Source: a virus. Taken from it: DNA of 36,011 nt. The stretch spans positions 1-36,011 of the IMG/VR virus record IMGVR_UViG_3300024518_002040; one strand, written 5' to 3'. Positions 4,252 to 28,274 of the stretch are shown here, one piece after another. The position numbers were made by a program, and so were the translations under genes. Position 1 is the first letter of the stretch, and every line of letters begins with the position of its first letter. The notes beneath the pieces are model-generated. The model had not been told where the DNA came from and did not search any database. It saw only the letters and a list, made by a program, of their open reading frames with translations.

Positions 4252-5844
4252 TCAGGCGAGCTTAGGGCGACGGAAGAACAAGATAGCTCCTCCAATAAGA
4301 GCCATCAAAGCTCCTAGCCCGAACAAGAAGCTCTGCAACCCGCCAGTGTAGGCAAGCTCTGTAGCTTTACGCTCAGGAACCCCACACGAAATCCCATCGT
4401 TTTCGGGATCAAGGTAATCCACGTAGAACGGGCTTCCCTTCAACTGTGGCGCAATACCCAACGCTGCAAGATCGGTACAGAAGACCTTCTCTACTACAGT
4501 CGTCGGAACCGTTGTTGTGATTTCAGGAACCGTCGTCGTTGGTGTCGGAACCGTTGTAGTGGTTTCGGGCACCGTTGTTGATGTAGTTTCTGGAACCGTT
4601 GTTGATGTGGTTTCAGGTACTGTCGTTGACGTGGTTTCTGGAACCGTAGTTGACGTAGTGGTTGTCGGCTCAGTTGTCGTGGTAGTTGTAGTTGTGCAAG
4701 GATCGGTATTCGCATTCGCCTTGTCAACCGTCTTCCACCCACCATTAGACTTCTGGGCTTGGAGCTTCACGTTGTCGCCACCAAAGGTAGTCTGGAAGTT
4801 CTTGTTACCAACCCCGAGGAAACCAAGGTTCTTGATATTGGAACCCTTCTTCACTCGGAAAGTTCCAGCAGTAGAAATCTCTGCCTTCCAACGGTACTTA
4901 CCTTCGACCTTCTGGCACTTAGGAATAAGTTCGCCATCGCCACGAGGAACCGTAGTAGTAGTTGTTGTCGGCTCAGTCGTAGTGGTAGTTGGCTCAGTCG
5001 TTGTGGTTGTTGGCTGAGTCGTTGTGGTTGTTGACGTAGTGGTAGTCGTCGGAGTCACACAGGCAGGGCCATGTGAGAGATTAAACTGACCACCCCAGCC
5101 ACCATAAATGGTTGCCGTTGCACTCGTCACGTTTGCAACAAGGTTGGCAGTAGTGGCATAGTGCGCCACCTTGCCAGTGAACTTGTCAAGCGGCACGTTG
5201 GCAGAGTTACCATTGCTCCACTCAACGAAGATCGAAGCTGGAGCGTTACCTTCAGCATCCACCTGAGTGATAACAAAGTGCCACTCACTATTGTCGATCT
5301 CGTGATCGCAAAGTGCCTTAGCTGAAATCTGCTTTGGGGCAACAGTAGTGGAAGTTGTCGTCGGCTTCTCGGTAGTAGTTGTCGTCGTCGACGTAGTTGT
5401 TGTCGTTGGGCAAGGAACCTCTACTGACTCAGTTCCGTTCTGATACTCACCAACTACAACGTAGCGGTACTCTCGGTACCACTCCGTCTGAGACTTCTGG
5501 TTGCTACTCGTATCGGTGCCTCTACCATGAAAAGCAGGGCCACGATTACGACCATCATCGTTCACGGAGCCAGCACCGGGCCAATCAGCCCAATCGTCAT
5601 AGTCAGACCAGTTAGACCAGTCACCCCACCGAAACCGCTTGCTAAGTCGCGTTCGAGTGCGAGTCCTTGTGTGGGTTTCCTTTTCGATGACATCCCCATA
5701 AGTGGGAACTTCTTCGTAACACGTTTGCGGTGTGTCCCCTTTATGTTTTGCCCCGGCAGGGGAAGCAACGAATCCGCCAAACACAGACAGAACCATCGCT
5801 ACAACACCTACTATAAGCAGTGATACTGCGCCTCGCTTATTCAT
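4252..5844 (-). CDS. LAYTG sortase-anchored threonine-rich surface protein
   Basis: A 530-residue protein. An N-terminal signal peptide (MNKRGAVSLLIVGVVAMVLS, probable cleavage after SPAGA) is followed by several small extracellular domains separated by long Thr-rich linkers. An excalibur-like calcium-binding domain comes at about 455-490 (DPENDGISC). The end has LAYTG (497-501), a hydrophobic segment and the basic tail RRPKLA. This is a cell-wall sorting signal; LAXTG is the motif of class E sortases of high-GC Gram-positive bacteria. The start is set by AAGGAG 6 nt upstream rather than the frame start at 5874. The Thr-rich stalk could be O-glycosylated. It probably sits on the host surface during infection or lysogeny; its ligand is unknown. 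Confidence 0.8.
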   Translation of the reverse strand: MNKRGAVSLLIVGVVAMVLSVFGGFVASPAGAKHKGDTPQTCYEEVPTYGDVIEKETHTRTRTRTRLSKRFRWGDWSNWSDYDDWADWPGAGSVNDDGRNRGPAFHGRGTDTSSNQKSQTEWYREYRYVVVGEYQNGTESVEVPCPTTTTTSTTTTTTEKPTTTSTTVAPKQISAKALCDHEIDNSEWHFVITQVDAEGNAPASIFVEWSNGNSANVPLDKFTGKVAHYATTANLVANVTSATATIYGGWGGQFNLSHGPACVTPTTTTTSTTTTTQPTTTTTEPTTTTTEPTTTTTTVPRGDGELIPKCQKVEGKYRWKAEISTAGTFRVKKGSNIKNLGFLGVGNKNFQTTFGGDNVKLQAQKSNGGWKTVDKANANTDPCTTTTTTTTEPTTTTSTTVPETTSTTVPETTSTTVPETTSTTVPETTTTVPTPTTTVPEITTTVPTTVVEKVFCTDLAALGIAPQLKGSPFYVDYLDPENDGISCGVPERKATELAYTGGLQSFLFGLGALMALIGGAILFFRRPKLA

Positions 5845-5909
5845 TACTTTCTCCTTCAATAGATTGCAACTCATACCATATCACGCATTTCTTCGAAAGA
5901 AAACCGAGC

Positions 5910-11979: not shown

Positions 11980-12209
11980 GATGTCTCCGGTTCCATTGGG
12001 TTGTTGGAAACCCACGGGGTTTCCATGTCGTAGCAGTATACACTACTTTCGCCTTCCTTGTAGTAGTTGCACCACTCGGGGAAAGCAAGCCTCAACTTTA
12101 AGGGCGGATGAATAGCAGATACCAGCATTGTATCCCCATCCTTCGGGCCACCACTAAAGGCGATCTCCATGTTGGAAGACCTCTTGGCCTTCTTCTTTTT
12201 ACTTACCAT
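11976..12209 (-). CDS. Hypothetical 77-residue protein
   Basis: A small protein with a Lys/Arg-rich start (MVSKKKKAKRSS) and then FSGGPKDGDTM and a C-terminal part rich in aromatic residues (WCNYYKEGESSVYCYD). The FSGGPKDG start is seen in small phage proteins of unknown role. An alternative start at the internal Met14 would remove the basic leader. It overlaps the RNA ligase gene by 11 bp and the next gene by 4 bp. Confidence 0.5.
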   Translation of the reverse strand: MVSKKKKAKRSSNMEIAFSGGPKDGDTMLVSAIHPPLKLRLAFPEWCNYYKEGESSVYCYDMETPWVSNNPMEPETS

Positions 12210-12798
12210 AATCCTTTATCTTAATTTTGGCTACTGGCTCATCGAAATCCCACCAAACGATCCCCTCAATCCCAGCGTGATCATTGGCTTTGCTTCGTTG
12301 GAGTAACATCCAATCGTACAATTCGTCGGGATCGATCGGGGTGCGACCGAACACCTTCGGGATATTAATAGAAGAAGCGAGGCTTTCCCTCCAAGGGATT
12401 AGGGAAAAGAAGTAGAGTGTGTGGAATTCGAGTTCCAGAGAGTTCCCTTGAATCTTAGGGCCAACCGCTTCAGCGACATGTTCCCCGTTCGGAACCCCAG
12501 CGAAATTCGTGTTGTTTGCTGCATCCCACAGCCAGTAGTCAGACGATTTAACGTTAAGGGGAGCCGCTTCACGATACCACGGGTCTATAATGCCGTCATG
12601 CTTCTGGTCTTTCGAAGGATTACATCGTGCTTCAAGGCGCACGAGAGTACCAGAGCGTACAGTGACACGCACGTTCGCTCCGTTAAGCTTCTCGGTTGCG
12701 AGCCAGTCATTACTGGGTGCTGTCGTTAGATGTGGCGACAGCGTGTCTGTCAAGCGGCCATCGGAGGTTCGCTCGTAGAGGGTGGGCACCTTTATCAT
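12199..12798 (-). CDS. RNA ligase (Rnl2/DRB0094-like)
   Basis: A 199-residue nucleotidyltransferase. Motif I is ATEKLNGAN (34-42), with Lys37 as the expected AMP-accepting nucleophile. Later motifs are LELEFHTLYFFSL (III/IIIa region), EGIVWW (IV) and AKIKIKDY (V). Such enzymes join RNA ends through an adenylated intermediate; in phages they typically repair tRNAs cut by host defence nucleases. No tRNA gene or polynucleotide kinase is in this window. GGA lies about 9 nt from the ATG. DNA ligase is less likely because of the small size and lack of an OB domain. Confidence 0.8.
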   Translation of the reverse strand: MIKVPTLYERTSDGRLTDTLSPHLTTAPSNDWLATEKLNGANVRVTVRSGTLVRLEARCNPSKDQKHDGIIDPWYREAAPLNVKSSDYWLWDAANNTNFAGVPNGEHVAEAVGPKIQGNSLELEFHTLYFFSLIPWRESLASSINIPKVFGRTPIDPDELYDWMLLQRSKANDHAGIEGIVWWDFDEPVAKIKIKDYGK

Positions 12799-13614: not shown

Positions 13615-14542
13615 CAGCAGGTATCTTCGGTTTACAACCGCAACCGCTCTTCTTAGAGAGGTAGGTGTTGCTGCCTCTGCTAGCCCTCAGGGAGTGCTGT
13701 AATGAGGACGATCCCTGCCCCCTGCCCTTAGTTCGGGGGGTGTTGAACGTGTCATCACGCTGTCTCATGCGAAGCGGTGGGGTAATACCAGCTTCTCCAC
13801 AGCAGCCTACGAATGTTGCCCAATGTTCTGCGGCGCTAGTAATGGGTTGATCGGAGAAAAAAGTGAAGTAATAGAACGCTATGTGAGTGAACTCTACTGT
13901 CGTCTGGATGCCAGTAAGCCCCCCAAACAATATGGAGGCTGGGAAGGTACCAGAGAATACATCGTTTTCGTATTCGGAGAAGGTGTTTTGTTCCGTGTCC
14001 TCTCCATCGAGCCACAGAACAGCCGATCCAACGTCGTATGGCACGTAACTCCACCAGATCTGATGCCAGCATCCATCATTTAATACCGTTCCAGATATCC
14101 CTATTGGACCACCGAATCCGACGGCTTCCATCGTACAGGTAATAGTGATGTCAGTTTCAGTAAAAGCTGCCTTAATCTCCCAGTATTGATCGTCGCTGGA
14201 GATGACCTGTTCTCCGCTTGTTGGGATATCCGGGAACCTAACGTACATTTCTAGATCCCAGTCAAATATGCCGGGGAAATACTGTGGGGCAGTGTCTGTG
14301 GATTCTAGGTTAAAATGGTTGATCCCCTCACCCTGACCGTTAATACTAGCGTAAGAAGTACAACCACCGAACGAAGAGCAGACAGTGTTTTGACCGTAGT
14401 CCCCGCCTATCTTCCAATTCAATCCCGATGGGACAGACGGGCCATTGCCAGTGTTCTCGAACTCGTCCGTATTGACAACTTCACACATAAGGAACTGGTA
14501 GTACGGATTTTTAAGATCCTGAAGGTCACTCAAGGCAGTCAT
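13610..14542 (-). CDS. LamG-like minor tail protein
   Basis: A 310-residue protein. The middle (about 75-235) reads as a concanavalin/LamG-like jelly roll: a chain of beta strands with FDWDLEMYVRF, then DGCWHQIWWSYVPYD and a VLWLDGED turn. These domains bind carbohydrate or protein ligands and are common in phage tail fibres. The C-terminus is basic and ends in a Cys/Gly cluster (SGCGCKPK). It directly follows the large tail protein gene with a 4-bp overlap, which supports a virion role. The receptor is unknown but is probably a cell-surface glycan. Confidence 0.65.
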   Translation of the reverse strand: MTALSDLQDLKNPYYQFLMCEVVNTDEFENTGNGPSVPSGLNWKIGGDYGQNTVCSSFGGCTSYASINGQGEGINHFNLESTDTAPQYFPGIFDWDLEMYVRFPDIPTSGEQVISSDDQYWEIKAAFTETDITITCTMEAVGFGGPIGISGTVLNDGCWHQIWWSYVPYDVGSAVLWLDGEDTEQNTFSEYENDVFSGTFPASILFGGLTGIQTTVEFTHIAFYYFTFFSDQPITSAAEHWATFVGCCGEAGITPPLRMRQRDDTFNTPRTKGRGQGSSSLQHSLRASRGSNTYLSKKSGCGCKPKIPAV

Positions 14543-17490
14543 GGGTAATCTCCATAGTAGGCTGGCGTCGGCCTGCTAGCCTGCGAGATCTCCATTGGGT
14601 TTGCGATAGCATCGTCGCTAGCGAAATTAAAGCCAGCGTTCGGCCCCGGATACAACCTACCTGAAATAGCGGTTGTCTGTGTCGCCCAAATACCAATCCA
14701 GATCCACGGTGGTTCCGACGACCAGAAGTTCCATGATGAAGCGTCGACCATTTTGCCACTCAAAACGGCCCCGGCGTCGCTTTCGCTCCACGGGTGATAG
14801 CCACACATCTGGCCGTCAGAACCCCAACCAATGATAAGACCATCATCCTCGGGGTAGTCATTCCACCAGTCGGCTGCCTCAGGGTCACCACCGTTGAGAG
14901 AAGCAAGATAATTCGCTGTGATCGGCCTGTCGTAGACGACAATAGAGAAGGGTGTGGCAGGGAGCACCGTGGTGAACTCAGTCTTGACAACTGTGCCGAT
15001 CTCACCCACAGGGATGCGGATGACGTTCCACAGATTGCCGGGTGTCGCAAAGTAGGGGATGAACCCGGCCTTCGACTCGCAGTCGAATACTACGTTTTCG
15101 TCTTGCGCCTGCTTGGCGCTGGAGTATTTGCGAGTAGCCTTCAGTGGCGGATCACCAATCGACCTATCACGATCAAGCATCGCACCCACAGTCGCAGCGT
15201 CACGACTCTTGGAGTCTATCGTCAAGTCCACCGTCTGGCCTGAGAAGTTCACATTCACGGCAGAAATGTGGAATAGCACATCTTCCCCACGGTACCCTTT
15301 GTACAGGATATTTTCCCCGGCCTGCATGTCAAAGCGCGATCCTTCCTCTGGGTCTATACCCAAAGTCATCGAACCCATGTAGCCGGGGTCGGCGTTTCGT
15401 TTCAACTCGTTTTGCGCTGAAATCGTCGCTTCACGCTTACTGGACTTCTCTCCATAGTTGTTGTACGTTTCGATCCTCATGATCGATTTGTCGTAATTCG
15501 AATTATTCCCAGATATTGAACCATCAGCGCTATACAGGAACGGCTCCACCCGACGGTCAGTAACCAGAGGGGCTATGTAAGCAGACGCTAGATCACCAGA
15601 GTAAGACCCCGGATTAAAGGTAGCGGTCCAAGTTTGAGGGCCAATAATTCCGTCAACTGTGATACCTGCGGCACCCTGAAGGAAACGGCACAAGTTGGCA
15701 TCGTATTCGTCATAGAGCCCATCCGCTTGGATGGAAAATCCAATCTGTTCCATCCTGCGCTGCCAAGTAATCACGCCCGGAGAGGTGTCATTCATACCCC
15801 TCCCTATATAATAGGTCGGCCATAGTGGGGGGTTGTCTTCCTGCCCCGGATAGAAGTTCGGGTATTTAGAGTTGCGCCACTTACAGTTCTTAGAGTCGGT
15901 ACCTTCACCAAAGAACACATTCGGCTGCACCGTGCGGTCGCGAGTGATCGAATGTTCGACACCATGCGTGCCAACGCTCACGGTCCAATCTACCGTCCAA
16001 GTATCCTTAGTTCGGATAACAGGGCGACGACCAGTCAGCTTCGTCATTGTGTACTGTGAAACATTGCCGCCCGCATCTGGTTCAGTCGTGAAACGGGCAT
16101 CTCCGAGATCGGGCTGGTCTCCATGGAAAGAAGTGAAACCATCTGCCTTAAGAAGGATATAGCCTGCCCCGCCATCACTCATAGACATGTCTCTCCATGC
16201 CACTGAAGTGGTTCCCGTGCCAGCAGAATCACCATAGTGGGTTGCTGTACCTTGAGTGTGTACTTTGCCAGAAGTATCTAGGGCGTACAATCCGGTACCA
16301 GCAGCGTTAACTTCTAGCGCCACGAACACGTCGTTCTCTATGTTGAAATCGCCAAAGGAGGCAGCGTCGCCAAAGCTCTGAACTTGGCCGCCCCATGACA
16401 GCAGCCAGTAACCGTTGCCAGAGGGGGTAGGAACCATGTCAAGGAAGATGTCAGGGAAAACGGTTCCGTTGTCGAACGTACGCGACCCCAGCGGGGTGCC
16501 GTCACCATAATGAGTCGCATCACCGAAGCAGCGGACCTGCCCGTAGATGTTCATAATACGGTAGCCACCCATGTTAGTGGTGCCGTGGATGGCGTTCCAG
16601 TACTGATTCGAGTTGATTGGAGGTTCGCCATACCATGGATCGAATCCGGGTACATCCGACTTAAAATCTAGACGACGACCGACGTATCCCCCGCGGGAAA
16701 GATAGTATCCCTCTTTCCGGCCCTTGTCATACCATACGTCAGTGCAGTAGAGGCCGGGATCGTTGAAAAGGTGGATGAAGATGGCGTTCCACCACGTTGA
16801 AGATCCGTGATTGGGCATATATTGACCGAAGGTAGCAAACGTGCCATGATCCCCCATAATCCAGTAGCCATCCTCGGACGTAGCTACAGCGTGCGCTGTC
16901 TCATCGTCGAACATGAACGCTGGCGTATATGAATTCGATAGAAGTTCCTGAACCCAGCCGGTAAGCATCTGGTTCCAAGAACCCTGATTCCTTGTAGGGT
17001 TGGATGAATAGGTAAGCCAGTTCATCTGCTTCAAGCGAAGACCATAGTACTTGGAACGCAAGTTAACTTCGGCAGCAACAGCGAACCCCGAATCCTGTGG
17101 CTGGAATCCAAAGTTGGGAACTTTAGTGAAGAAGTCGATCTGATATAGAGCGCCAACACATTCTATAGAGAGGCCGTTGTCTGACGGACCCAAATCATCT
17201 GTACCCGCTCCAACGAACCCTTCCCACAAGGTTTTAACGAAGTTGTTGTCTTCGTCTAGTAGGTTGATGTTGACGTTTTGGAAATCTTGAACAGGCAGGT
17301 CTACATAATCCTCGAATGAAGTCACACCGGGGAAAAGCAGAGACAATGTTTTATCAGAAAACGGTTCCTCGGAACTCCACCCCTCGACAATGGTTGGAAC
17401 ACCCCGCCACTTTGTCAAGTCGACGTGATCGCAAAGAACTTGGAGGCGACCCCAGATCTCCACCGTGGTGCTAGTCGCTTCATACGTCAT
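14539..17490 (-). CDS. Large minor tail protein with propeller repeats and peptidoglycan-binding domain
   Basis: A 983-residue protein. The first 150 residues resemble the N-terminal part of phage tail hub proteins. Residues 208-465 hold about six repeats of 45-50 residues (GYWIMGDHG, GYRIMNIYGQVRCFGDA, GYWLLSWGGQVQSFGDA, GYILLKADG), as in the FGDA-type repeats common in surface proteins of Acidimicrobiia and other actinobacteria. They probably fold as a beta propeller. Residues 575-625 are a PG_binding_1-like domain (LCRFLQGAAGITVDGIIGPQ). The rest resumes hub-like sequence (SKREATISAQNELKR). It overlaps both neighbours by 4 bp. It probably contacts the host cell wall during adsorption. Confidence 0.75.
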   Translation of the reverse strand: MTYEATSTTVEIWGRLQVLCDHVDLTKWRGVPTIVEGWSSEEPFSDKTLSLLFPGVTSFEDYVDLPVQDFQNVNINLLDEDNNFVKTLWEGFVGAGTDDLGPSDNGLSIECVGALYQIDFFTKVPNFGFQPQDSGFAVAAEVNLRSKYYGLRLKQMNWLTYSSNPTRNQGSWNQMLTGWVQELLSNSYTPAFMFDDETAHAVATSEDGYWIMGDHGTFATFGQYMPNHGSSTWWNAIFIHLFNDPGLYCTDVWYDKGRKEGYYLSRGGYVGRRLDFKSDVPGFDPWYGEPPINSNQYWNAIHGTTNMGGYRIMNIYGQVRCFGDATHYGDGTPLGSRTFDNGTVFPDIFLDMVPTPSGNGYWLLSWGGQVQSFGDAASFGDFNIENDVFVALEVNAAGTGLYALDTSGKVHTQGTATHYGDSAGTGTTSVAWRDMSMSDGGAGYILLKADGFTSFHGDQPDLGDARFTTEPDAGGNVSQYTMTKLTGRRPVIRTKDTWTVDWTVSVGTHGVEHSITRDRTVQPNVFFGEGTDSKNCKWRNSKYPNFYPGQEDNPPLWPTYYIGRGMNDTSPGVITWQRRMEQIGFSIQADGLYDEYDANLCRFLQGAAGITVDGIIGPQTWTATFNPGSYSGDLASAYIAPLVTDRRVEPFLYSADGSISGNNSNYDKSIMRIETYNNYGEKSSKREATISAQNELKRNADPGYMGSMTLGIDPEEGSRFDMQAGENILYKGYRGEDVLFHISAVNVNFSGQTVDLTIDSKSRDAATVGAMLDRDRSIGDPPLKATRKYSSAKQAQDENVVFDCESKAGFIPYFATPGNLWNVIRIPVGEIGTVVKTEFTTVLPATPFSIVVYDRPITANYLASLNGGDPEAADWWNDYPEDDGLIIGWGSDGQMCGYHPWSESDAGAVLSGKMVDASSWNFWSSEPPWIWIGIWATQTTAISGRLYPGPNAGFNFASDDAIANPMEISQASRPTPAYYGDYP

Positions 17491-18308: not shown

Positions 18309-18647
18309 TTAATCACATGTTATGGCGAATGAACCGGGGCTAAAGTAGGGTATATTCCCTGCAATAGGTGAAACAGTCGCGCTTACCTCTCCCCAGAGTA
18401 ACATATTGCCCGCTGTGGGATCGTCGTAAACGGCAACGTAATCTACGTTACCCCATGAATCAATAGCCGTTGGGAACGTAATTGTAGCACCGTTCGACTT
18501 GATTCCTCCTCCGGCATCAGGCCAATTCGTTGAATTGTTCGTGGCTGCGACCCTCGCATACGCAGTACCGGTGGTAGATACTTCAGTACCGCCCCCACCA
18601 TCGTCAGGAATAGAGGTAAATAGAGCAATATATACCGTCGCTGGCAT
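18309..18647 (-). CDS. Phage tail-type protein, start uncertain
   Basis: A 112-residue protein from the only canonical start (ATG 18647). It matches a common phage virion family that has ATVYIALFT near the N-terminus and an AYARVAATN segment later. Family members usually begin about 20-25 residues earlier. Here the frame stays open upstream and encodes SYFENLILNATLGDD, which fits that family, but there is no ATG, GTG or TTG before an upstream stop. An ATC codon at 18719-18717 has AAAGG 7 nt before it and could be an unusual start. It follows a TATAAT promoter at 18763. Confidence 0.65.
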   Translation of the reverse strand: MPATVYIALFTSIPDDGGGGTEVSTTGTAYARVAATNNSTNWPDAGGGIKSNGATITFPTAIDSWGNVDYVAVYDDPTAGNMLLWGEVSATVSPIAGNIPYFSPGSFAITCD

Positions 18648-18828: not shown

Positions 18829-18855
18829 CCATTCGGGTAGTTTTAGCCCGAATGG
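18829..18855 (-). terminator. Hairpin terminator at the end of the glycan cassette
   Basis: CCATTCGGG (18829-18837) and CCCGAATGG (18847-18855) form a perfect 9-bp stem with a 9-nt loop. The stem spans the stop codon (18843-18845) of the epimerase gene. There is no long T-run after it. It probably separates the glycan cassette from the tail genes. Confidence 0.55.
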
Positions 18856-19832
18856 AACTGATCATAAATCCACTTGTAGGTTTCCTCAAGGCCGGATCTC
18901 AACGGTACGCTCGGCTCCCAACCTAGCCGTTCGTTGATGAATGTGTTGTCACTGTTCCTACCCCTCACACCCTTAGGGGCATCTAGGTCGTAGGAACGCT
19001 GAAGCTCCACTCCTGCTATGTCTTCAGCAATGGAAACGAGTTCATTGATTGACACTAACTCTGAGCTTCCAAGGTTGATGGGTTCATTCACTTCGCTGCG
19101 AAGGATCGCCTTAGTGCCCTGAATGCAGTCTGTGTGATACATGAAGCTTCTAGTCTGTTCTCCGTCACCCCAAATTTCGATCCGGTGGTTACCAGATTCA
19201 ACGGCCTCTATGACCTTCCTGCAAATAGCAGCGGGGGCTTTCTCTCGGCCTCCAGTCCATGTCGAGCGTGGTCCGTACACGTTGTGGAATCTAGCAGACC
19301 TGCCAACCATGTCGGTTTCTTCGTCGTAATGGAAAGTAGCCCTCTCCGAGAACAGCTTCTCCCAGCCGTAGCCATCTTCTGGCATAGCCGGGTAAGCATC
19401 CGATTCTTTCAAAGCCACAACATCTGCTTCAGTCTGTCGATCTTCAGCGTAGGCGCAGGCAGAGGAAGAGTAAAAGAAGCGCTTCACCCCTGACTGGCGA
19501 GCTGCTTCCAGCATGTTGACTGAAATGAGTACGTTTAACATGCAATCCAGTTTATGGGTTTCAATGAACCCCATTCCACCCATGTCAGCGGCAAGATTGT
19601 ACACCTCTTCGAATGGGCCGAAGGTCATGACGTAATCGCAGTTGCCGCGATCCTTTAGGTCTTTTCGATCCAAGTTGCACACGCCGCGAGTCGAGGGGTT
19701 CACGGCATCCCACTCTTCGATCGGCTTAATATCTACAGCTACAACATCGAAGCCTTCTGCGACCAAAGAGTCCACAAGGTGGCCGCCAATGAATCCACCG
19801 GCACCAGTGACACAGGCTCTCTTGCTTCTCAT
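18843..19832 (-). CDS. GDP-mannose 3,5-epimerase-like enzyme
   Basis: A 329-residue short-chain-type sugar-nucleotide enzyme. It has the NAD-binding GxxGxxG motif (GAGGFIGG, 10-17). Segments closely resemble plant GDP-mannose 3,5-epimerase: AADMGGMGFIETHK, GVKRFFYSSSACAYAE, YGWEKLF, RFHNVYGPRSTWTGGREKAP and GVRGRNSDNT. Expected catalytic residues are present: Cys126, Tyr155, Lys159 and Lys198. The plant enzyme makes GDP-L-galactose (and GDP-L-gulose) from GDP-D-mannose. It is the last gene of the cassette and overlaps the upstream glycosyltransferase (ATGA). A related epimerase/dehydratase with another sugar cannot be excluded, but the match is detailed. Confidence 0.75.
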   Translation of the reverse strand: MRSKRACVTGAGGFIGGHLVDSLVAEGFDVVAVDIKPIEEWDAVNPSTRGVCNLDRKDLKDRGNCDYVMTFGPFEEVYNLAADMGGMGFIETHKLDCMLNVLISVNMLEAARQSGVKRFFYSSSACAYAEDRQTEADVVALKESDAYPAMPEDGYGWEKLFSERATFHYDEETDMVGRSARFHNVYGPRSTWTGGREKAPAAICRKVIEAVESGNHRIEIWGDGEQTRSFMYHTDCIQGTKAILRSEVNEPINLGSSELVSINELVSIAEDIAGVELQRSYDLDAPKGVRGRNSDNTFINERLGWEPSVPLRSGLEETYKWIYDQFHSG

Positions 19833-20629
19833 ATTTGCACGCTTTCTATAGTCATGGAAGCCGCCAACCCTAATAGTACATCATTCAAAGAACCCTTTTC
19901 GACAGGGGCTCTGTTGTAGTTGCTGTCGTCGCCTTCCGTGTAGAAGTGTTCGTATTCGAAGCCATCAACCACCTCAAGCGTTCCACCGCTCTTCAACCAC
20001 TCGAGATTGAAAATGAAAGAATCACAGGCGTCAAAGACTCGACGCCAATGTATCTTCTCCCTTTCACCTTCGTCGGTTCCTAGGAAGTTTGGCATCATGA
20101 GGTCGGCACGCTCGTTCTGGTACCTTCCGAACACTTCCATGTATTTGGCGCGGTTCACGGTCTGGTTGCCAGTGTTCACGAAGCAGTTGAACATGCCACC
20201 CTGCTTGACGGCTTCACCGAAGTTCTCTGCGTGGTAGCTGCCAAGGTATGGCCGGTAGTCGAACTGGGGTTTAGCAAATGAAGGGCAGTACCAAGTCTCG
20301 GAGTCGAGGTTGAGCGACAGTACGAGATCAAGGATCTCGCTACTAAAAACGTTATCGGAATCACAGTTCATGACCCAATCACCCGTAGAATGCGCTACGG
20401 CTGACAGTTTGTTCCCGAATACCCCTAGGTTCTTTATGTTCCTGAATGTCTTGACCTTGGGTACTCCATCAAGAAGACCCACCAATCCGTCGTAGTCAGT
20501 AGAGTGATCGTCGACTACCACGATTTCGTCAATGAGGGGATGCTTGACGGCAGCGTCGATAGAGTCAAGGATAGTAGGCCCACCTCTGCTAGTTTCTTCA
20601 TACGCTGTCACGGCAAATGAAACAGTCAT
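19829..20629 (-). CDS. Family 2-type glycosyltransferase
   Basis: A 266-residue GT-A fold enzyme. VVVDDHSTD (37-45) and NCDSDN (88-93) are the nucleotide- and metal-binding acidic motifs of GT2 enzymes. The later region (NTGNQTVNRAKYMEVFGRY) is less typical. The sugar donor and acceptor cannot be predicted. The TAATG overlap with the upstream gene and ATGA overlap with the epimerase gene indicate one translationally coupled unit. Hydrophobic stretches are absent, so it is a soluble or peripheral enzyme. Confidence 0.75.
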   Translation of the reverse strand: MTVSFAVTAYEETSRGGPTILDSIDAAVKHPLIDEIVVVDDHSTDYDGLVGLLDGVPKVKTFRNIKNLGVFGNKLSAVAHSTGDWVMNCDSDNVFSSEILDLVLSLNLDSETWYCPSFAKPQFDYRPYLGSYHAENFGEAVKQGGMFNCFVNTGNQTVNRAKYMEVFGRYQNERADLMMPNFLGTDEGEREKIHWRRVFDACDSFIFNLEWLKSGGTLEVVDGFEYEHFYTEGDDSNYNRAPVEKGSLNDVLLGLAASMTIESVQI

Positions 20630-21336
20630 TAGATATCTTTCCTCATGGCGTAGTAGTTGACATGCTCTAGGTGGCAGTCATGCGTGGCTTCCAAAGTCTG
20701 AAGGGCTGCCCTTGTTTCGGAAATTACTTCTTCCCTGTGGCCGCCATGAAGGGCGTGGTTGTGAAGCTCTATGACTATGTAGTCCATAGCTCTGACTAGA
20801 TCCATGCCCGCTTCATCCGACCATATAGAATTCTCCCCGCCTTCGCAATCCAGCTTCAAAAGGTACTTTCTACCATCCTTTAGGAATGGAGAAATGATCT
20901 GAGGTAAGGTCCAAGAGGAAACCTCTGACTCGTCAAATATTCCATCCTCCCCCACTGCTTCCAACACCTCATCCTCGGCGTATCCGAGCCCAGTCGTGAA
21001 GTAAACTTCATGGGCTCCATTGAGAGCCCCTCTCTGGTGAAACACTTGCCCGCCTGAACCCAAGGCACCTCTTATGAACGTCATTTTGTCATCGACTTCG
21101 GTGAATTTCTTTAAATGAGTGAAGTTCTCGTAGTCTGGTTCGACAGAAACGACAAGAGCATCAGGGAATACAGATCGTGCGTGACGGGTAAAAACCCCTA
21201 CGTTGGCACCGATATCGAAAATTACATCGGGAGCCCATTCCAAAGTCTTCAGATTGTAGACATCATCTGTGACGACCTCACCGTATAGACCGGCGAACCC
21301 ACCGTTGAGAGTGTCTTCTAACCTGTCGACGATCAT
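20629..21336 (-). CDS. FkbM-family methyltransferase
   Basis: A 235-residue S-adenosylmethionine-dependent enzyme. FDIGANVGVF (40-49) is the SAM-binding motif I, VSVEPDYENF the second motif, and YLLKLDCEGGENS (158-170) the FkbM signature. FkbM enzymes commonly O-methylate sugars or related hydroxyls, which fits the glycan cassette. It starts at an ATGA overlap with the upstream methyltransferase and ends in a TAATG overlap with the next glycosyltransferase. Confidence 0.8.
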   Translation of the reverse strand: MIVDRLEDTLNGGFAGLYGEVVTDDVYNLKTLEWAPDVIFDIGANVGVFTRHARSVFPDALVVSVEPDYENFTHLKKFTEVDDKMTFIRGALGSGGQVFHQRGALNGAHEVYFTTGLGYAEDEVLEAVGEDGIFDESEVSSWTLPQIISPFLKDGRKYLLKLDCEGGENSIWSDEAGMDLVRAMDYIVIELHNHALHGGHREEVISETRAALQTLEATHDCHLEHVNYYAMRKDI

Positions 21337-21869
21337 TTTCTCTCTAACCAGTAGCTGGCATCGTTGATGTCTGCTGTAGGTAGAATGTGAATTTCCAGAT
21401 CCTTCTCTTTCGCGAACTCCCTGACAGCTTTTTCGCAGCCGGGGACCGGGAAGTCGTGGCCCGCCATCATTCCGTTGGCAGTCAACTTAGGCCAGTAGCA
21501 ATGAAGATCTCGGAGAACGTTCTCGTAGTCGTGTGAGGCGTCGATGAAGGCGAACCCTAAAGTACCGTCTTCAATCTCGTCGCACATCTCATAAGACCAC
21601 CCACGAAGCAGTTCATACTGGCCTTCGTAACCTGACAAGTTTTGGATGGTTTGCTGCATCTTGCCCTCATGGGTGTCGGCATCCCACGACGTAAGCTCGG
21701 CATAGCCACCCGGAGAGGGGTTCCAGTAATCTACCAAGTAGACGAAGGGTACTCCCCAACTCAAAATCTGACGGGAAAACCGCCCCTCTGCCACTCCAAC
21801 CTCCACCGCAGGAAGGTCAAGGATGCCTTGTTCCTCTAGTAGCTCACCAAGGTTGTCACGAGTTTTCAT
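21333..21869 (-). CDS. Class I SAM methyltransferase (Methyltransf_24-like)
   Basis: A 178-residue protein from the ATG at 21869, supported by GGAG 6-8 nt upstream and by the ATGA overlap with the preceding gene; the longer frame from 21932 lies inside that gene. EVGVAEGRFS (23-32) is the SAM-binding loop. YLVDYWNP, FIDASHDYE (108-116) and GHDF (137-140) follow the pattern of class I enzymes that methylate small molecules or sugars. The target is unknown; glycan O-methylation is inferred from context. Confidence 0.75.
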   Translation of the reverse strand: MKTRDNLGELLEEQGILDLPAVEVGVAEGRFSRQILSWGVPFVYLVDYWNPSPGGYAELTSWDADTHEGKMQQTIQNLSGYEGQYELLRGWSYEMCDEIEDGTLGFAFIDASHDYENVLRDLHCYWPKLTANGMMAGHDFPVPGCEKAVREFAKEKDLEIHILPTADINDASYWLERK

Positions 21870-22642
21870 TTTGTTTCTCCTGTTTCCCAATTGTAGGTGT
21901 CTGGATCGAAGTCGTCCATATTGTCTGCCCAAACGTAAGGGCCAAGCTTCTTAAAGCCGCTGAACACGGTGATCCCGTTGCCGATGTTCGATTGGTTGTC
22001 GTACTGCCATGCCATGCCGGGAACGAAACAATAGGCGTTAACCTTGTCCCCTAGCTGCATGAAGTTGTGATCGATCCCATCCGAACGATGGCAATTCTCT
22101 TCCAGCAACGACACCACTTTAGCAGCTTTAGTACCGTTGACGAAATATGCGTAGGTTCCCCACATGCCATACACCCGCATAATATGCTTATAGCCAGTAG
22201 GTTCTGCATCAAGACCCCTGTGGCCCCATGAGGCACACTCAGGGTCTTTGTACCACTCTCCGGGAACGTGGAAGGTTGCCCCAAGATAGAACACATCCCA
22301 ATCCTCGGGGAGCGCCTGAGAGGCATACCGGATACGGTCCTCTATGTCGGGGGCAAAACAGATATCATCTTCACAAACAGCGACGACAGAATCCTCAGAA
22401 CAAGTCTTAATGACTTCGATTTGACTTTTGTAGCAACCGATAGCACCGGGAGTTCTGTTTCTAATGCGTTCAACCTGTTCCGGGGGGCCATCCCATTCGG
22501 AAGGCAAGAAGGCTTTGAAGCGATTCGCTTCGATACCTACATTGGCAAACTGTCCTTCAGCGTGCTCCCTGCGGTCTGGCCTAGAATCCAGATTGATATA
22601 CCACCAGTCAAGAGGCTTGCCTTGAAATGCGTTCGTCACCAT
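21866..22642 (-). CDS. Family 25-type glycosyltransferase
   Basis: A 258-residue protein. YINLDSRPDRR (15-25) and the acidic CEDD (90-93) are signatures of GT25 (LPS beta-galactosyltransferase type) enzymes. GAIGCYKSQIEVIK (66-79) lies between them in the usual place. GT25 enzymes transfer galactose or related sugars to glycans or glycoproteins; the acceptor here is unknown. It overlaps the sulfotransferase gene upstream by 7 bp. Confidence 0.75.
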   Translation of the reverse strand: MVTNAFQGKPLDWWYINLDSRPDRREHAEGQFANVGIEANRFKAFLPSEWDGPPEQVERIRNRTPGAIGCYKSQIEVIKTCSEDSVVAVCEDDICFAPDIEDRIRYASQALPEDWDVFYLGATFHVPGEWYKDPECASWGHRGLDAEPTGYKHIMRVYGMWGTYAYFVNGTKAAKVVSLLEENCHRSDGIDHNFMQLGDKVNAYCFVPGMAWQYDNQSNIGNGITVFSGFKKLGPYVWADNMDDFDPDTYNWETGETK

Positions 22643-23277
22643 TTCAGGTACCCCCCAGTTGGGCTAATGCGTTCAAGCGCACAACTTCTTTGTGCGTCGG
22701 AAACGGGGACTCCGATAAAGTCAACCAACGTATCCAAAAAATACTCCCTATTTTGGATAGCCCTTTCGTAACTAACCAACAAAGTTGGCAGTTGCGTGTG
22801 CTTAACGAAATCCCAGTTGGTGGCATACCTATCCACAACATCGTCAATGAGTCCGTCGATAGGCCTGTCGATCCCGTTCTCTGCATCGAAGCGACGTTCC
22901 CCCTGCACAGAGGCAAGCATATCCCTGAACACGAGTATAACCCTAGGATTGCGTAATGCGTAAGTTATTTCCTTCAGGGGGTGGATAGCACCCGGATCTT
23001 TCCAACCCCAAACGTCGTGGGTGGAGTTGTTCTCCCCTATCCGTTCAAGTCGTTCTAACGGATAGGGGCTGTGCATTGCCTGATCTTCGAACGTGAACTC
23101 TTGCAGATCCGTCTTCGGCCCCATATAAACGCCTAGAGCGTGAACGGCTGCTGCAACCATCGTAGTTCCGCCACGAGGCACGCCTGCAACAACTATCGTC
23201 TTGTGTTCTTCGTCGGGAACCTCGGCTATATTCATAGCCATGCAGGGTTCAGGTGTGCCAACGTGCTCGAACTCCAT
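22636..23277 (-). CDS. Sulfotransferase-like protein
   Basis: A 213-residue protein with the P-loop-like PAPS-binding motif PRGGTT (34-39), followed by a helix. The second site FRDMLASV (117-124) is where the family binds the 3'-phosphate. GWKDPGAIHP (91-100) is a further conserved-looking block. Members move sulfate from PAPS to sugar or other hydroxyl groups. It starts at a TAATG overlap with the upstream gene. Its place amid glycosyltransferases favours a carbohydrate substrate. PAPS would have to come from the host. Confidence 0.65.
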   Translation of the reverse strand: MEFEHVGTPEPCMAMNIAEVPDEEHKTIVVAGVPRGGTTMVAAAVHALGVYMGPKTDLQEFTFEDQAMHSPYPLERLERIGENNSTHDVWGWKDPGAIHPLKEITYALRNPRVILVFRDMLASVQGERRFDAENGIDRPIDGLIDDVVDRYATNWDFVKHTQLPTLLVSYERAIQNREYFLDTLVDFIGVPVSDAQRSCALERISPTGGYLKW

Positions 23278-23906
23278 TACAGGATCGCTTTTCTAACGTA
23301 GAAGGCGTCGCCCCATCCGAAGGATTCGATAAGATCGGTTTCAACTCGTTCGTAGTCGGTGAGGAAAGCATCAATCTCTTCCAGAAGGGCGCAGTCTTCG
23401 TATAAGCGTTGAACATTAACCTCGGTATAGATGTAGTCAAACCCTGTCAGGAGCCCGCCAAGCCCCTTCAGGGCTAGTAGCTCGGCTCCTTGGATGTCGA
23501 GGTTGACGAAGTTGACAGTTTCCGGTACCTCATGCTTTGACACCAGATCATAAAGACTTTCAGTGCGACGAGTCTCCGTGTCGACGTAATGGACTTCCGG
23601 GTGGGCCGTCTTATGGGTGCCTAGTTCTAGGATTGAAGAACTCTGCCCGTTATTAGCGATATTGAATGAGACTTCCTGCCCGCTGGTGTCACTCACGACA
23701 GCCGTGATGACGTGCTGGTTCAGGTCGGCAGACAACGAAGCTGTCAGTTTTTCAGCAATCTCCGTGTTTGCTTCCACCCAGTAGACGGGGATGTCACCGA
23801 AGATGCCGTAGGAGGAAAGTTCCTCTGCCTCGTGCGCTCCAACGTGGAGGATTCCCCCCACCTTCATGTCATACTTTTCATTCAACGATTCGATGGTAAT
23901 CAACAT
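23277..23906 (-). CDS. Second FkbM-family methyltransferase
   Basis: A 209-residue protein from ATG 23906, which overlaps the preceding stop (TAATG). The frame extends 21 bp further upstream into the fucosyltransferase-like gene. HVGAHEAEE (21-29) replaces the usual motif I (DIGAN) as in some FkbM proteins. VYWVEANTEI and VNLDIQGAELLALKG (135-149) match the family. It probably methylates sugars. It is only distantly related to the FkbM protein at 20629, so it is not a recent duplication. Confidence 0.75.
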   Translation of the reverse strand: MLITIESLNEKYDMKVGGILHVGAHEAEELSSYGIFGDIPVYWVEANTEIAEKLTASLSADLNQHVITAVVSDTSGQEVSFNIANNGQSSSILELGTHKTAHPEVHYVDTETRRTESLYDLVSKHEVPETVNFVNLDIQGAELLALKGLGGLLTGFDYIYTEVNVQRLYEDCALLEEIDAFLTDYERVETDLIESFGWGDAFYVRKAIL

Positions 23907-24700
23907 TATACTTTTACCTCTGTCCAATGTTCAGGAATGCCTTCACGCCAAGGCGTCCCAGCTAGGGCTGGTCCCCACCAAACGGAAGGGTAGTAGGCGT
24001 GCATGTTCTCGGCAAGATATGCACCCCACCAAGAGAAGGTGGAGTTGGCGATGATATGTTGGTCACAGTTCATCATGGAGAAAAGATCAAGCCAGTCTGT
24101 AGGCTCTCCAATTCTGTCGCACACTTCTACAGGGCGCGCTGTTCCTTCGACGAACTCCACGTTTCCCTCGTCGAGCACGGCAGCGTACACCGCATCGTCA
24201 TGTTCCCACATATTTCGAACGGCTGGGATGTCGTCCGAAAACACGAAGAACTTGGTGTCAGGTGCCAAATCCAGTACCCTCTCCATAGCCCCCTGATAGT
24301 AGGTCTTAGACGGAACGGGAAAGCTTTCCGGGTGGTTCAGATAGTCCCCCATTCGGTAATGTACCGAACAGGTGTCGTCTCGTTCGTTCACCTCGGGAAG
24401 ATACTCGGCCTGACGGACTATCGCCTCAGGTGAGGGCTGGAACATGTTCCAAACGTCATACTCTAGGCCATCCCAGTGGTGAAGCTCCTGATAGTATAAG
24501 GTCTTTCCGTCGGCAACCGGCCCTTTAGGGGCTTCAAAGAAGCGGTCGGGTACGCTGAAGAAAGGGCGGTATTCCCAATCGCTCTTAATTGAGAGAGATC
24601 CATTGGTTTTTGTGGCTTGCCCGTACTGCCAAGCGATCTGCCAAAGCTGATTGCCTAGTCGTCCGTTTCTTTCCAGCCACTCGTAAGTAAAGGTTGCCAT
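23906..24700 (-). CDS. Family 11 (alpha-1,2-fucosyltransferase-like) glycosyltransferase
   Basis: A 264-residue protein with all GT11 hallmarks: GRLGNQLW (13-20), HYRMGDY (114-120, the HxRRxD motif), FSDD (154-157) and IIANSTFSWWGAYL (216-229). Family members transfer fucose from GDP-L-fucose. Because the cassette also encodes a GDP-mannose 3,5-epimerase, the donor here may instead be GDP-L-galactose, which differs from GDP-fucose only by a 6-hydroxyl. It is preceded by a TATAAT box, so an internal promoter may boost this gene and those after it. Confidence 0.85.
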   Translation of the reverse strand: MATFTYEWLERNGRLGNQLWQIAWQYGQATKTNGSLSIKSDWEYRPFFSVPDRFFEAPKGPVADGKTLYYQELHHWDGLEYDVWNMFQPSPEAIVRQAEYLPEVNERDDTCSVHYRMGDYLNHPESFPVPSKTYYQGAMERVLDLAPDTKFFVFSDDIPAVRNMWEHDDAVYAAVLDEGNVEFVEGTARPVEVCDRIGEPTDWLDLFSMMNCDQHIIANSTFSWWGAYLAENMHAYYPSVWWGPALAGTPWREGIPEHWTEVKV

Positions 24701-24729
24701 CTTAGAGCTTTCCAGCGAGGATTAAAATC

Positions 24730-24735
24730 ATTATA
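24730..24735 (-). promoter_or_regulatory. Internal TATAAT box in the glycan cassette
   Basis: A perfect TATAAT lies on the minus strand directly after the stop codon (24738-24736) of the preceding glycosyltransferase gene, 29 bp before the next ATG. The -35 (TTCCAT at 18-bp spacing) is poor. This is the only gap between overlapping genes in the cassette. Confidence 0.45.
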
Positions 24736-25449
24736 TCAAACCGAACCCGTGTTATGGAACCTGTCGAGAGCCAATCGAACCATCTTCTCTTTGTCTCCGA
24801 TAGCGGCTTCATACTCGGCATAAAGTTGCCGGTTGTCTGTAATCATGGGCTGGTGCCAAGTGGTTGCAATGGGGGCTGGATGCCAGAGATGTATGGCGTA
24901 TCCGAAGGGAACTCGTTCGTGTGGGCCGAGTAGGGTGTCGGCTGCAAGTCTGAAAGCGTTGTCTTCGTAACCCCACCCCTCAAACCTTTCGTCGTATCCG
25001 CCCATGGCATGAAGGTCATCCTTCTCCATTATTACTTGCCCTGCCCAAGAAGTAATACGATGTTCGTAGGTGATGTCGTCTGGATGTAGAGCGAAGCCGG
25101 GGATCTGATCGAGTACAAACAGGGCGCTCTTCTCGTCCGTGTTGTAGTATCCCATCTCCCCATACGGGAGAACCCAAGGGGCTCCCTCTTTCACCATCTT
25201 AATTCCACGTTCTATGAATGAAGCGCATGGGACAGTGTCAGCATCAGCGAAAACCAGAAAATCACCCGAGGCAAGCTTCGCCCCATAGTTTCTACTACCA
25301 CCCCGACAGAAAGACTTCTTCTCGTTGTCAGCTAAGATTAGTTCAGCATCAGGCAGGATCTCCCTATACCGTTGGGTTATCCACTCAAGGATGCGGGTTC
25401 TGTAACGATCTCCGGTATCCCTCCACGGGATAACGACAGATATACTCAC
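24736..25449 (-). CDS. Glycosyltransferase, GT2/GT7-C type
   Basis: A 237-residue GT-A protein from the GTG at 25449, in a GTGA overlap with the previous gene; the frame from 25518 is inside that gene. It has VVIPWRD near the N-terminus, FADADT (67-72) for nucleotide-sugar and metal binding, and GYDERFEGWGYED (151-163). The last fits the Glyco_transf_7C pattern of galactosyl- and N-acetylgalactosaminyl-transferases. Donor and acceptor remain open. It is the second enzyme of the cassette. Confidence 0.75.
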   Translation of the reverse strand: MSISVVIPWRDTGDRYRTRILEWITQRYREILPDAELILADNEKKSFCRGGSRNYGAKLASGDFLVFADADTVPCASFIERGIKMVKEGAPWVLPYGEMGYYNTDEKSALFVLDQIPGFALHPDDITYEHRITSWAGQVIMEKDDLHAMGGYDERFEGWGYEDNAFRLAADTLLGPHERVPFGYAIHLWHPAPIATTWHQPMITDNRQLYAEYEAAIGDKEKMVRLALDRFHNTGSV

Positions 25450-26003
25450 GCCCTTTCCTCGCTGATCTTTGCTAGATCCTCGGCGTTCTTGCCCTCGCCT
25501 GATAGCCTGTACTCCCACAGGCGCTTACGTACGGCCATGAACTTAGCACCGGCATCTAGTAACTTCAACCAAAGTTGCCAGTCCTCATATACACCTTCGA
25601 GTGGGAACCCTCCGACGTCGCGGACCATTTGCACTTTGACGCAAGCCGTCACTGGAATAGTGTTGCCAATGCGAAGCATGTCTGGATTGAAGTCAGTGTC
25701 GGGGATTCCCAGAAAGTCCCGCTCACACCATGTATACACGAAATCGAAGTCGTCCAAATAGGGCTGTACGGCTTCATTGTACTGGGGGTACAAAATATCG
25801 TCATCGTCCAAGAAGAGAACCCACTCCGTGTCGACCTTCTCGATTAACTTATTGCGAGTGGCCGCTGGCCCTTCCCTATCATGGTCAATTTGGACAATAT
25901 GATCAGCAAACTCAACCGTCTGGTCCTGCACGGAAGCCTTACACTCGGCCAGCTTTTCGACCCTATCGGATAAGGTCGGAGTAATTACGGTTATGGGTTT
26001 CAT
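25446..26003 (-). CDS. Family 2 glycosyltransferase, first gene of the glycan cassette
   Basis: A 185-residue short GT2 enzyme: TVITPTLSDR at the start, then FLDDDD (64-69) as the acidic nucleotide-binding motif, and WQLWLKLLDAG later. GPAATRNKLI (45-54) is the usual helix before it. It is shorter than most GT2 enzymes (about 230-300), so it may represent a minimal catalytic domain. AGGAT precedes the ATG by 8 nt. All downstream cassette genes follow with short or no gaps. Confidence 0.75.
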   Translation of the reverse strand: MKPITVITPTLSDRVEKLAECKASVQDQTVEFADHIVQIDHDREGPAATRNKLIEKVDTEWVLFLDDDDILYPQYNEAVQPYLDDFDFVYTWCERDFLGIPDTDFNPDMLRIGNTIPVTACVKVQMVRDVGGFPLEGVYEDWQLWLKLLDAGAKFMAVRKRLWEYRLSGEGKNAEDLAKISEERA

Positions 26004-27914: not shown

Positions 27915-28274
27915 TTACTTTGTGACCTTACCCCAGCTACTATCGCCTGTGTGGACGCCATCTTCAAAGTAGAAGGAGGTCCACTGATAGCAGCCATTCT
28001 CCTCCCATGTCTGCTCCCACGAATAGGTCGAACGGGTGACAGAGGGTGCCTCGTAGAGATTGATGGTGTACGACCATAAGAGATCAAGTTCTTTCCCTAG
28101 GGTGCCCTCAACCTGCTCCAGAGTCATGCCCTCTCGGACCTTCAAATACTCTGACTCAGCAATCCAGTCACATCCCCTCGCAACCCAATCGGGTTCAACG
28201 GGAGGGGGTGGCGGTTGGCAAGCCGTCAAACTAATGGCGACTGCCGCTACGGCTGTTGCAAGAACCTTTATCAT
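27915..28274 (-). CDS. Small lipoprotein with SmpA/BLIP-like domain
   Basis: A 119-residue protein with a signal peptide ending in the lipobox LTAC (Cys19), then a Pro-rich linker (PPPPPVEP). A C-terminal domain (about 40-119) starts with [14 protein letters not shown], a pattern of the SmpA/OmlA and beta-lactamase-inhibitor-like fold, with YSWEQ, two Cys and a FEDGVH turn. It would be lipid-anchored outside the membrane. Phage lipoproteins of Gram-positive hosts can block superinfection by binding tape-measure or receptor proteins; that role here is inference. The start is supported by TTGAAA (28310-28305), a 17-bp spacer and TAGGAT 7 nt before the ATG. Confidence 0.7.

Follow-up and report, generated by a model that had tools for sequence, protein, structure and literature searches.

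A ten-gene phage glycan cassette as a putative new form of known virion-glycosylation genes

Freeman et al. 2023 reportedly described virion-glycosylation genes of mycobacteriophages, among them gp108-110 of Che8 and further genes in Corndog and Myrna. Within this set, capsid glycosylation has been reported to require Che8 gp110 (PMC12363180). The Che8 glycosyltransferase genes are located at the right end of the genome, outside the head module, and gp108 joins a GT2 domain to a Methyltransf_24/TylF domain. In Dove, a 109 kb mycobacteriophage isolate resembling cluster J, the run gp12-gp21 has the major capsid gene on one side and the head-to-tail adaptor on the other, and holds glycosyltransferases, a methyltransferase and a gene annotated as UDP-glucose dehydrogenase; no literature report on a Dove glycan was found. 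Outside the bacteriophages, chlorovirus PBCV-1 uses its own GDP-sugar synthesis, several glycosyltransferases and a sugar O-methyltransferase to decorate its major capsid protein (PMC7019647). Finally, cyanophages such as S-SCSM1, S-SSM7 and others carry a GDP-mannose 3,5-epimerase (GME) together with a GT11 enzyme in the same genomes.

Here, a 36,011-base stretch of viral DNA (the window) was analysed, which makes up a whole IMG/VR virus record classed as linear and, hence, is probably a genome fragment. At 18843-26003, ten genes on the minus strand, read as a single operon, code for an epimerase, a protein with a sulfotransferase fold, five glycosyltransferases and three methyltransferases; eight of the nine gene junctions overlap, while the remaining one is a 35-nt gap. 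Pfam gives all ten genes their families, with every best match above the curated cut-off, so that a ten-gene glycan cassette of just these families with nearly all genes joined by overlaps, as proposed in an earlier sequence-only reading, is borne out.

18843..19832, minus strand: g1, predicted GDP-mannose 3,5-epimerase (Pfam Epimerase, 1e-39)
19829..20629, minus strand: g2, GT2-family glycosyltransferase, member of the cassette core (PF00535, 6e-15)
20629..21336, minus strand: g3, FkbM methyltransferase (PF05050, 1e-7; TIGR01444, 8e-16, above cut-off)
21333..21869, minus strand: g4, predicted TylF/Methyltransf_24-type sugar O-methyltransferase (PF13578, 6e-15)
21866..22642, minus strand: g5, GT25-family glycosyltransferase (PF01755, 2e-11)
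22636..23277, minus strand: g6, PAPS-type sulfotransferase (PF13469, Sulfotransfer_3, 3e-7, above cut-off)
23277..23906, minus strand: g7, FkbM methyltransferase (PF05050, 4e-11; TIGR01444, 1e-11, above cut-off)
23906..24700, minus strand: g8, GT11-family glycosyltransferase, alpha-1,2-fucosyltransferase family (PF01531, 3e-14; phrog_2644, 3e-26)
24736..25449, minus strand: g9, GT2/GT7-C type glycosyltransferase (PF10111, 1e-9; PF02709, 6e-7; phrog_1721, 6e-25)
25446..26003, minus strand: g10, GT2-family glycosyltransferase, first gene of the operon (PF00535, 7e-9; phrog_14775, 6e-17)

Three of these starts were corrected by homologue alignment: GTG 25449 for g9 (listed ORF 25518), ATG 23906 for g7 (listed 23927) and ATG 21869 for g4 (listed 21932). 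The GC content is 0.51 in the cassette and 0.51 in the remainder of the record, and a scan for sigma-70 promoters gave no excess over shuffled expectation. RecA, RNR, DnaB, ThyX, a tail protein and a Gp80-type fiber protein flank the cassette as phage genes.

In comparison with Che8, the families of gp108 correspond to g10 and g4, the GT2/7C-like gp109 to g9 and the GT25 protein gp110 to g5. The homology of g9 to Che8 gp109 (2e-17) is remote, as is that of the GT25 profile to Che8 gp110 (25 bits, both in PF01755); g9 is also homologous to Dove gp17 (9e-17), and g10 matches Dove gp15 (1e-7, BLASTP). However, Che8 has three genes only, lacks the epimerase, GT11, FkbM and sulfotransferase, and shows remote sequence similarity to the window; likewise, no GME, GT11, FkbM or sulfotransferase was seen in gp12-gp21 of Dove. 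PBCV-1 offers a works-like analogue of the present cassette, but is a eukaryotic algal virus with a GDP-fucose/rhamnose pathway. The cyanophage enzymes are at most 46% (GME, relative to g1) and 29% (GT11) identical, and no relative of the GT25 or GT2 core was detected in the cyanophage sugar-gene clusters.

Among SDR sugar enzymes, GME is closest to g1: PDB entries 8sg0 and 2c59 are matched with about 295-300 bits, compared to 104 bits for the next family, and C126, Y155, K159 and K198 align with C145, Y174, K178 and K217 of plant GME. These four catalytic residues are kept in 62-63 of 63 sequences. As judged from sequence, g1 is a GDP-mannose 3,5-epimerase with a predicted role in GDP-L-galactose / GDP-L-gulose supply. 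Comparable conservation is observed for the HxRxxD motif of GT11 (invariant in 71 viral relatives including g8, for which no PDB relative was found by sequence), the EDD motif of GT25 (invariant in 55 sequences), the first D, last D and N of the GT2 motif DxDN (invariant in 70 sequences) and D144 and Q146 of the FkbM family of g7 (invariant in 60 sequences). Overall, the active-site residues of the cassette enzymes show little or no variation among dozens of viral relatives, which argues for maintained genes instead of chance ORFs. The AlphaFold2 model of g4 (pLDDT 86.9) has MycF, SpnH and NovP as best fold matches, and its modelled fold is that of a sugar O-methyltransferase. For g6, an AlphaFold2 model with a pLDDT of 71.5 was matched by Foldseek to PAP-bound sulfotransferases (best E 7e-6, TM about 0.5).

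Relatives of the cassette were recovered from IMG/VR by an epimerase query and subsequently by alignments, considering seven core families (GT2, GT11, GME, GT25, two FkbM and MT24). At least four of the seven occur in 52 IMG/VR contigs (42 clusters), nearly always on the same strand. GT25 of the g5 type was found at 50 viral loci and the GT2 family of g2 at 48 (A4 alignment as query), while IMG/VR searches that used g6, g8, RNR or the 983-aa tail protein as sole query gave no confirmed relatives. Co-occurrence of GME and GT11 over all loci was computed and left out as evidence, because those same families had been used to collect the loci. Domain fusions among the relatives (GT2-GT11, GT2-sulfotransferase and FkbM-GT25) indicate that the enzymes belong to one pathway. 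GenBank phages are essentially devoid of the core GT25 and GT2 at the sensitivity used, and no pertinent literature report on phage cassettes with FkbM or sulfotransferase was found. In GTDB genomes, a first GT25 scan yielded no relatives and a second one six weak ones at 24-32%, among them a Woesebacteria MAG in which epimerase, MT24, GT25 and GT11 matches occur together. By sequence, the g5 clade is therefore essentially, i.e. almost only, found in viruses, whereas "virus-only" would be too strong in view of this MAG. The cassette is common in environmental phages, with a core of up to seven enzymes, and was not found in named phages; its earlier description as unusual for a phage holds for the latter and fails for the former. 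Phage-borne glycan assembly, also put forward in the sequence-only reading, is supported by the flanking phage genes and by an enzyme set recurring in dozens of viral contigs.

In 35 of the 42 clusters (34 by HMM, one more by PHROGs), the cassette is at most about 5 kb from a gene identified as head, portal, terminase or tail, a closeness that is inflated on short contigs as the viral call in IMG/VR rests partly on hallmark genes. At least seven structural layouts surround the cassette, including MuF|cassette|DUF2213-MCP, ClpP-183aa|cassette|portal, cassette|TerL-portal, cassette|scaffold-MCP and tape measure|cassette. For several cassettes, no virion gene was recognised nearby, and a DnaB-like gene adjoins three short related ones (L103-L105). 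In the window, no MCP, portal or terminase was found among the proteins tested; there, the cassette adjoins fiber and tail genes.

14539..17490, minus strand: 983-aa tail-type protein with peptidoglycan-binding domain (PF01471, 5e-6)
18309..18647, minus strand: Gp80-type phage fiber/head protein gene (PF23140 Gp80, 4e-26; phrog_240 head protein, 9e-12)

The Gp80-type gene lies 195 nt downstream of the cassette on the same strand, and its product is a candidate acceptor or virion-module marker. The 983-aa protein, with tblastn matches to siphophage proteins, e.g. of Pam4 and EBPR siphovirus 6, is part of the virion module neighbouring the cassette.

Taken together, we consider it probable that the operon encodes a soluble cytoplasmic pathway which builds a short, decorated heteroglycan on a virion protein of the phage itself (head, head fiber or tail). 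In this pathway, g1 would convert host GDP-mannose into GDP-L-galactose (or L-gulose), the five glycosyltransferases would add sugars one after another, with GT11 as the likely user of the GDP-L-sugar, and the two FkbM enzymes and the TylF-type enzyme would O-methylate the glycan chain. The sugar laid down by GT2 is probably the one sulfated by the sulfotransferase. The acceptor, sugar identities and step order are suggestions of ours, and the benefit may be shielding, altered adsorption or particle stability. Whereas the sequence-only reading had named host surface or virion as target, the virion is favoured here owing to the recurrent head/tail-gene neighbourhood, the kinship with Che8 capsid glycosylation and the lack of a membrane or lipid-carrier enzyme in the cassette; the host surface is less favoured.

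Remodelling of an envelope glycan of the infected host (capsule, teichoic-type polymer or LPS), which would exclude other phages or alter grazing, is the usual proposal for cyanophage sugar genes. For the present cassette we regard it as unlikely, even though LPS and polysaccharide enzymes occur within the GT25 and GT2 families and host enzymes could provide missing export steps. GME and GT11 are also found together in large cyanophages, e.g. S-SCSM1, where the two were read as cell-wall genes by the authors (PMC9602691). However, the ten cassette genes include no initiating phosphoglycosyltransferase, flippase, polymerase, exporter or membrane GtrA/GtrB-like enzyme, and membrane segments are missing from all ten proteins (19-residue hydropathy maximum of 1.33 compared to 2.28 for a membrane-protein control). 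Moreover, host-envelope remodelling gives no reason to expect that cassettes recur in the midst of virion genes. Thr-rich linkers are typical O-glycan acceptors, and a phage-encoded, putatively secreted 540-aa protein (4252-5874) with 20% threonine, a hydrophobic N-terminal segment, a weak Excalibur domain and a sortase-like tail (C-terminal LAYTG-hydrophobic-RR) might be glycosylated in the cytoplasm and shown on the infected cell like serine-rich-repeat adhesins; this is improbable, as its gene is 13 kb from the cassette, in a search for such proteins that covered the window. Least credible is glycosylation or hypermodification of phage DNA, to which the PHROGs label "DNA methyltransferase" of the g4 family (phrog_2675) and a weak match of g10 to phrog_842 (HMC-glucosyltransferase, 5e-5) would point; the label was dropped, however, since the g4 fold matches MycF, SpnH and NovP and not DNA methyltransferases. 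In addition, neither dCMP/dUMP hydroxymethylase nor DNA glucosyltransferase was recognised among the proteins tested (a subset of the ORFs of a fragmentary record), the thymidylate synthase-like gene in the window is of ThyX type by inspection, and we know of no FkbM, TylF, GT11, GME or sulfotransferase enzyme that modifies DNA.

With virion glycosylation as the preferred reading, the cassette is rated as a new, widespread form of already known virion-glycosylation genes. If this is right, virion glycosylation would be a common strategy of environmental phages and no mycobacteriophage curiosity, phage sugar genes should be annotated for the particle instead of for host cell wall or DNA, and such cassettes would be a source of sugar-modifying enzymes. 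More tentatively, and with less than even confidence, the GT2-GT11-GME-GT25-MT24-FkbM core may be virus-borne, spread across unrelated phage lineages and near-absent from cellular genomes and cultured phages, coating capsids or fibers with O-methylated glycans that contain L-galactose and, in the branch of the window, are also sulfated. To our knowledge, a sulfated glycan on a phage particle would be the first known. A scan with the sulfotransferase profile gave just two contigs, both already known, and a single weak locus, so that sulfation appears limited to a small branch. In one relative, the sulfotransferase is fused to GT2 (L036:11291-12826), and g6 probably acts on a sugar as sulfate acceptor.

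A ten-gene glycan cassette, joined almost throughout by stop/start overlaps, had been proposed in the sequence-only reading, and both claims held: ten open reading frames lie in tandem on the minus strand (18843-26003), each above the curated cut-off of its Pfam family, and eight of the nine junctions overlap, the ninth having a gap of 35 nt.

Genes of the cassette in order of transcription (minus strand, 18843-26003; Pfam, above curated cut-offs; shifted starts from homologue alignment)
g10, first transcribed: GT2
g9, 2nd: GT2/GT7C, start shifted to 25449
g8, 3rd: GT11
g7, 4th: FkbM, start shifted to 23906
g6, 5th: Sulfotransfer_3
g5, 6th: GT25
g4, 7th: Methyltransf_24, start shifted to 21869
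g3, 8th: FkbM
g2, 9th: GT2
g1, last transcribed: Epimerase

The cassette is a real, maintained operon. The whole IMG/VR virus record (36,011 bases, classed linear) is probably a genome fragment. Between 17000 and 28000, 18 terminator-like sites occur on both strands, compared with 9.1 (sd 2.9) in shuffled sequences, and these are mostly intragenic.

On the suggested check for recurrence in other phages, the enzyme set was found again in dozens of viral contigs. Scans with the epimerase, the GT25 alignment (A1) and the GT2 alignment (A4) returned 27, 50 and 48 viral loci, respectively, further cassette genes being present at 5 of the 27. Profile searches over the collected loci gave a recurring core of GT2, GT11, GDP-mannose 3,5-epimerase (GME), GT25, Methyltransf_24 and g7-type FkbM, often accompanied by the second, g3-type FkbM. 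After removal of repeat contigs, at least four of these seven families are found in 52 viral contigs (42 nucleotide clusters): GT2 in 49, GT25 in 48, GT11 and g7-type FkbM in 46 each, Methyltransf_24 in 44, GME in 39 and g3-type FkbM in 11. Except in contigs L043 and L061, all members of a cassette share one strand. The GC content of the cassettes (0.26-0.67) tracks that of the flanks, which suggests many hosts. The GT25 of the window clusters with those of L036 (59% identical), L021, L088 and L038. Small proteins near GME and GT11 in two contigs (L026:7448-7846 and L004:357-785) begin with FVNGCFDILH or FTNGCFDILH and resemble RfaE/TagD-type nucleotidyltransferases, so that some cassettes may make additional sugar nucleotides.

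Among 50,697 GenBank phage records, GT25 gave three remote matches (27%) in uncultured huge phages and g2 none. Two scans of 84,980 bacterial/archaeal species genomes with the GT25 alignment yielded no relatives and six (24-32%), respectively. These absences are relative, because the scans depend on short exact patterns. GME and GT11 are already known from cyanophages. A Woesebacteria MAG contig (L133:4710-12398) carries epimerase, Methyltransf_24, GT25 and GT11 matches in a single run; either this is a related cassette in a cellular genome, or the bin includes viral sequence here.

Where neighbours are identifiable, the cassette sits among particle-building genes.

Layouts observed around the cassette
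TerL-portal-MuF, cassette, DUF2213-MCP
ClpP-183aa, cassette, portal
cassette, TerL-portal; also cassette next to other portal families
cassette, scaffold-MCP
TerL, cassette, tape measure; and tape measure, cassette

By HMM, such a gene lies within 5 kb in 34 of the 42 clusters (on both sides in 17), and PHROGs adds one more (L122), a closeness for which short contigs are skewed, since hallmark genes help to define viral contigs; this bias accounts less easily for contigs above 40 kb and for the precise position between MuF and DUF2213. In the window, the next same-strand gene, 195 nt beyond the cassette, encodes a Gp80-type fiber protein (Pfam 4e-26; phrog_240 head protein); genes for small proteins and for a tail-type protein of 983 aa come after it.

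We consider it probable that the glycan is built in the cytoplasm on a virion protein of the phage itself. GME would convert host GDP-mannose into GDP-L-galactose, the GT2, GT25, GT7C and GT11 enzymes would attach sugars to the virion protein while particles assemble or beforehand, methylation would fall to the FkbM and TylF-type enzymes, and sulfation to g6. The epimerase assignment of g1 is based on 295-300 bits against plant GME (8sg0, 2c59; next family 104), and its C126, Y155, K159 and K198, retained in 62-63 of 63 viral relatives, align with C145, Y174, K178 and K217, the catalytic residues of Arabidopsis GME. The DxDN (g2), EDD (g5) and HxRxxD (g8) motifs are invariant or almost so among viral relatives, and the moderate AlphaFold2 model of g6 (pLDDT 71.5) best matches PAP-bound sulfotransferases (7e-6). 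Fused enzymes usually serve one pathway; hence, the fusions found in related contigs place sulfotransferase and methyltransferases in the glycan pathway. These comprise GT2-sulfotransferase in a single 511-aa ORF (L036:11291-12826; the sulfotransferase half is under the Pfam cut-off, yet alignable with g6), GT2-GT11 (L045:8413-9960; L061:7810-9324) and FkbM-GT25 (L061:9329-10747). An unnamed domain is also fused with GT25 (L053:9320-10753).

The nearest analogue in function is the chlorovirus capsid glycan, made with virus-encoded GDP-sugar enzymes, glycosyltransferases and an O-methyltransferase (PMC7019647). In mycobacteriophage Che8, gp110 is described as an essential glycosyltransferase of capsid glycosylation (PMC12363180, citing Freeman et al. 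2023). This GT25 protein matches the cassette profile, gp109 is homologous to g9 (2e-17) and gp108 combines GT2 with Methyltransf_24/TylF, both present in the window; thus, every Che8 operon family is represented, while GME, GT11, two FkbM, a second GT2 and the sulfotransferase go beyond them. The mycobacteriophage isolate Dove carries glycosyltransferases, one homologous to g9, and a methyltransferase between capsid and head-to-tail genes; within this run, gp13 (L141:6491-7000) is annotated as serine/threonine kinase.

Alternatively, the enzymes could build a host surface glycan, which we regard as unlikely; this reading would not lead one to expect the repeated placement beside particle genes, and membrane-like segments are absent from all ten proteins (peak 19-residue hydropathy 1.33, against 2.28 for the adjacent membrane protein). 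Still less probable as acceptor is the 540-aa Thr-rich protein (4252-5874, minus strand; 20% T), which has a hydrophobic N-terminus, a sub-threshold Excalibur domain and a sortase-signal-like C-terminus (LAYTG-hydrophobic-RR); this putatively cell-wall-anchored product could carry the glycan, and a phage-encoded protein of that kind would be unusual. DNA modification, suggested by the PHROGs label of g4 ('DNA methyltransferase'), is the most improbable reading, the label being contradicted by an AlphaFold2 model (pLDDT 86.9) matching MycF, SpnH and NovP, all three small-molecule or sugar O-methyltransferases.

Elsewhere in the window, the 983-aa tail-type protein (14539-17490, minus strand) has an internal PG_binding_1 domain, repeated GYWLL/FGDA-like motifs and a C-terminal half akin to siphophage proteins; together with a RecA whose nearest PDB relative is mycobacterial, it hints at an actinobacterial host. 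A weak RNA_ligase match under the Pfam cut-off lies at 12199-12798 (minus strand), and a predicted 119-aa lipoprotein with an LTAC lipobox (27915-28274, minus strand) is possibly of the superinfection-exclusion type.
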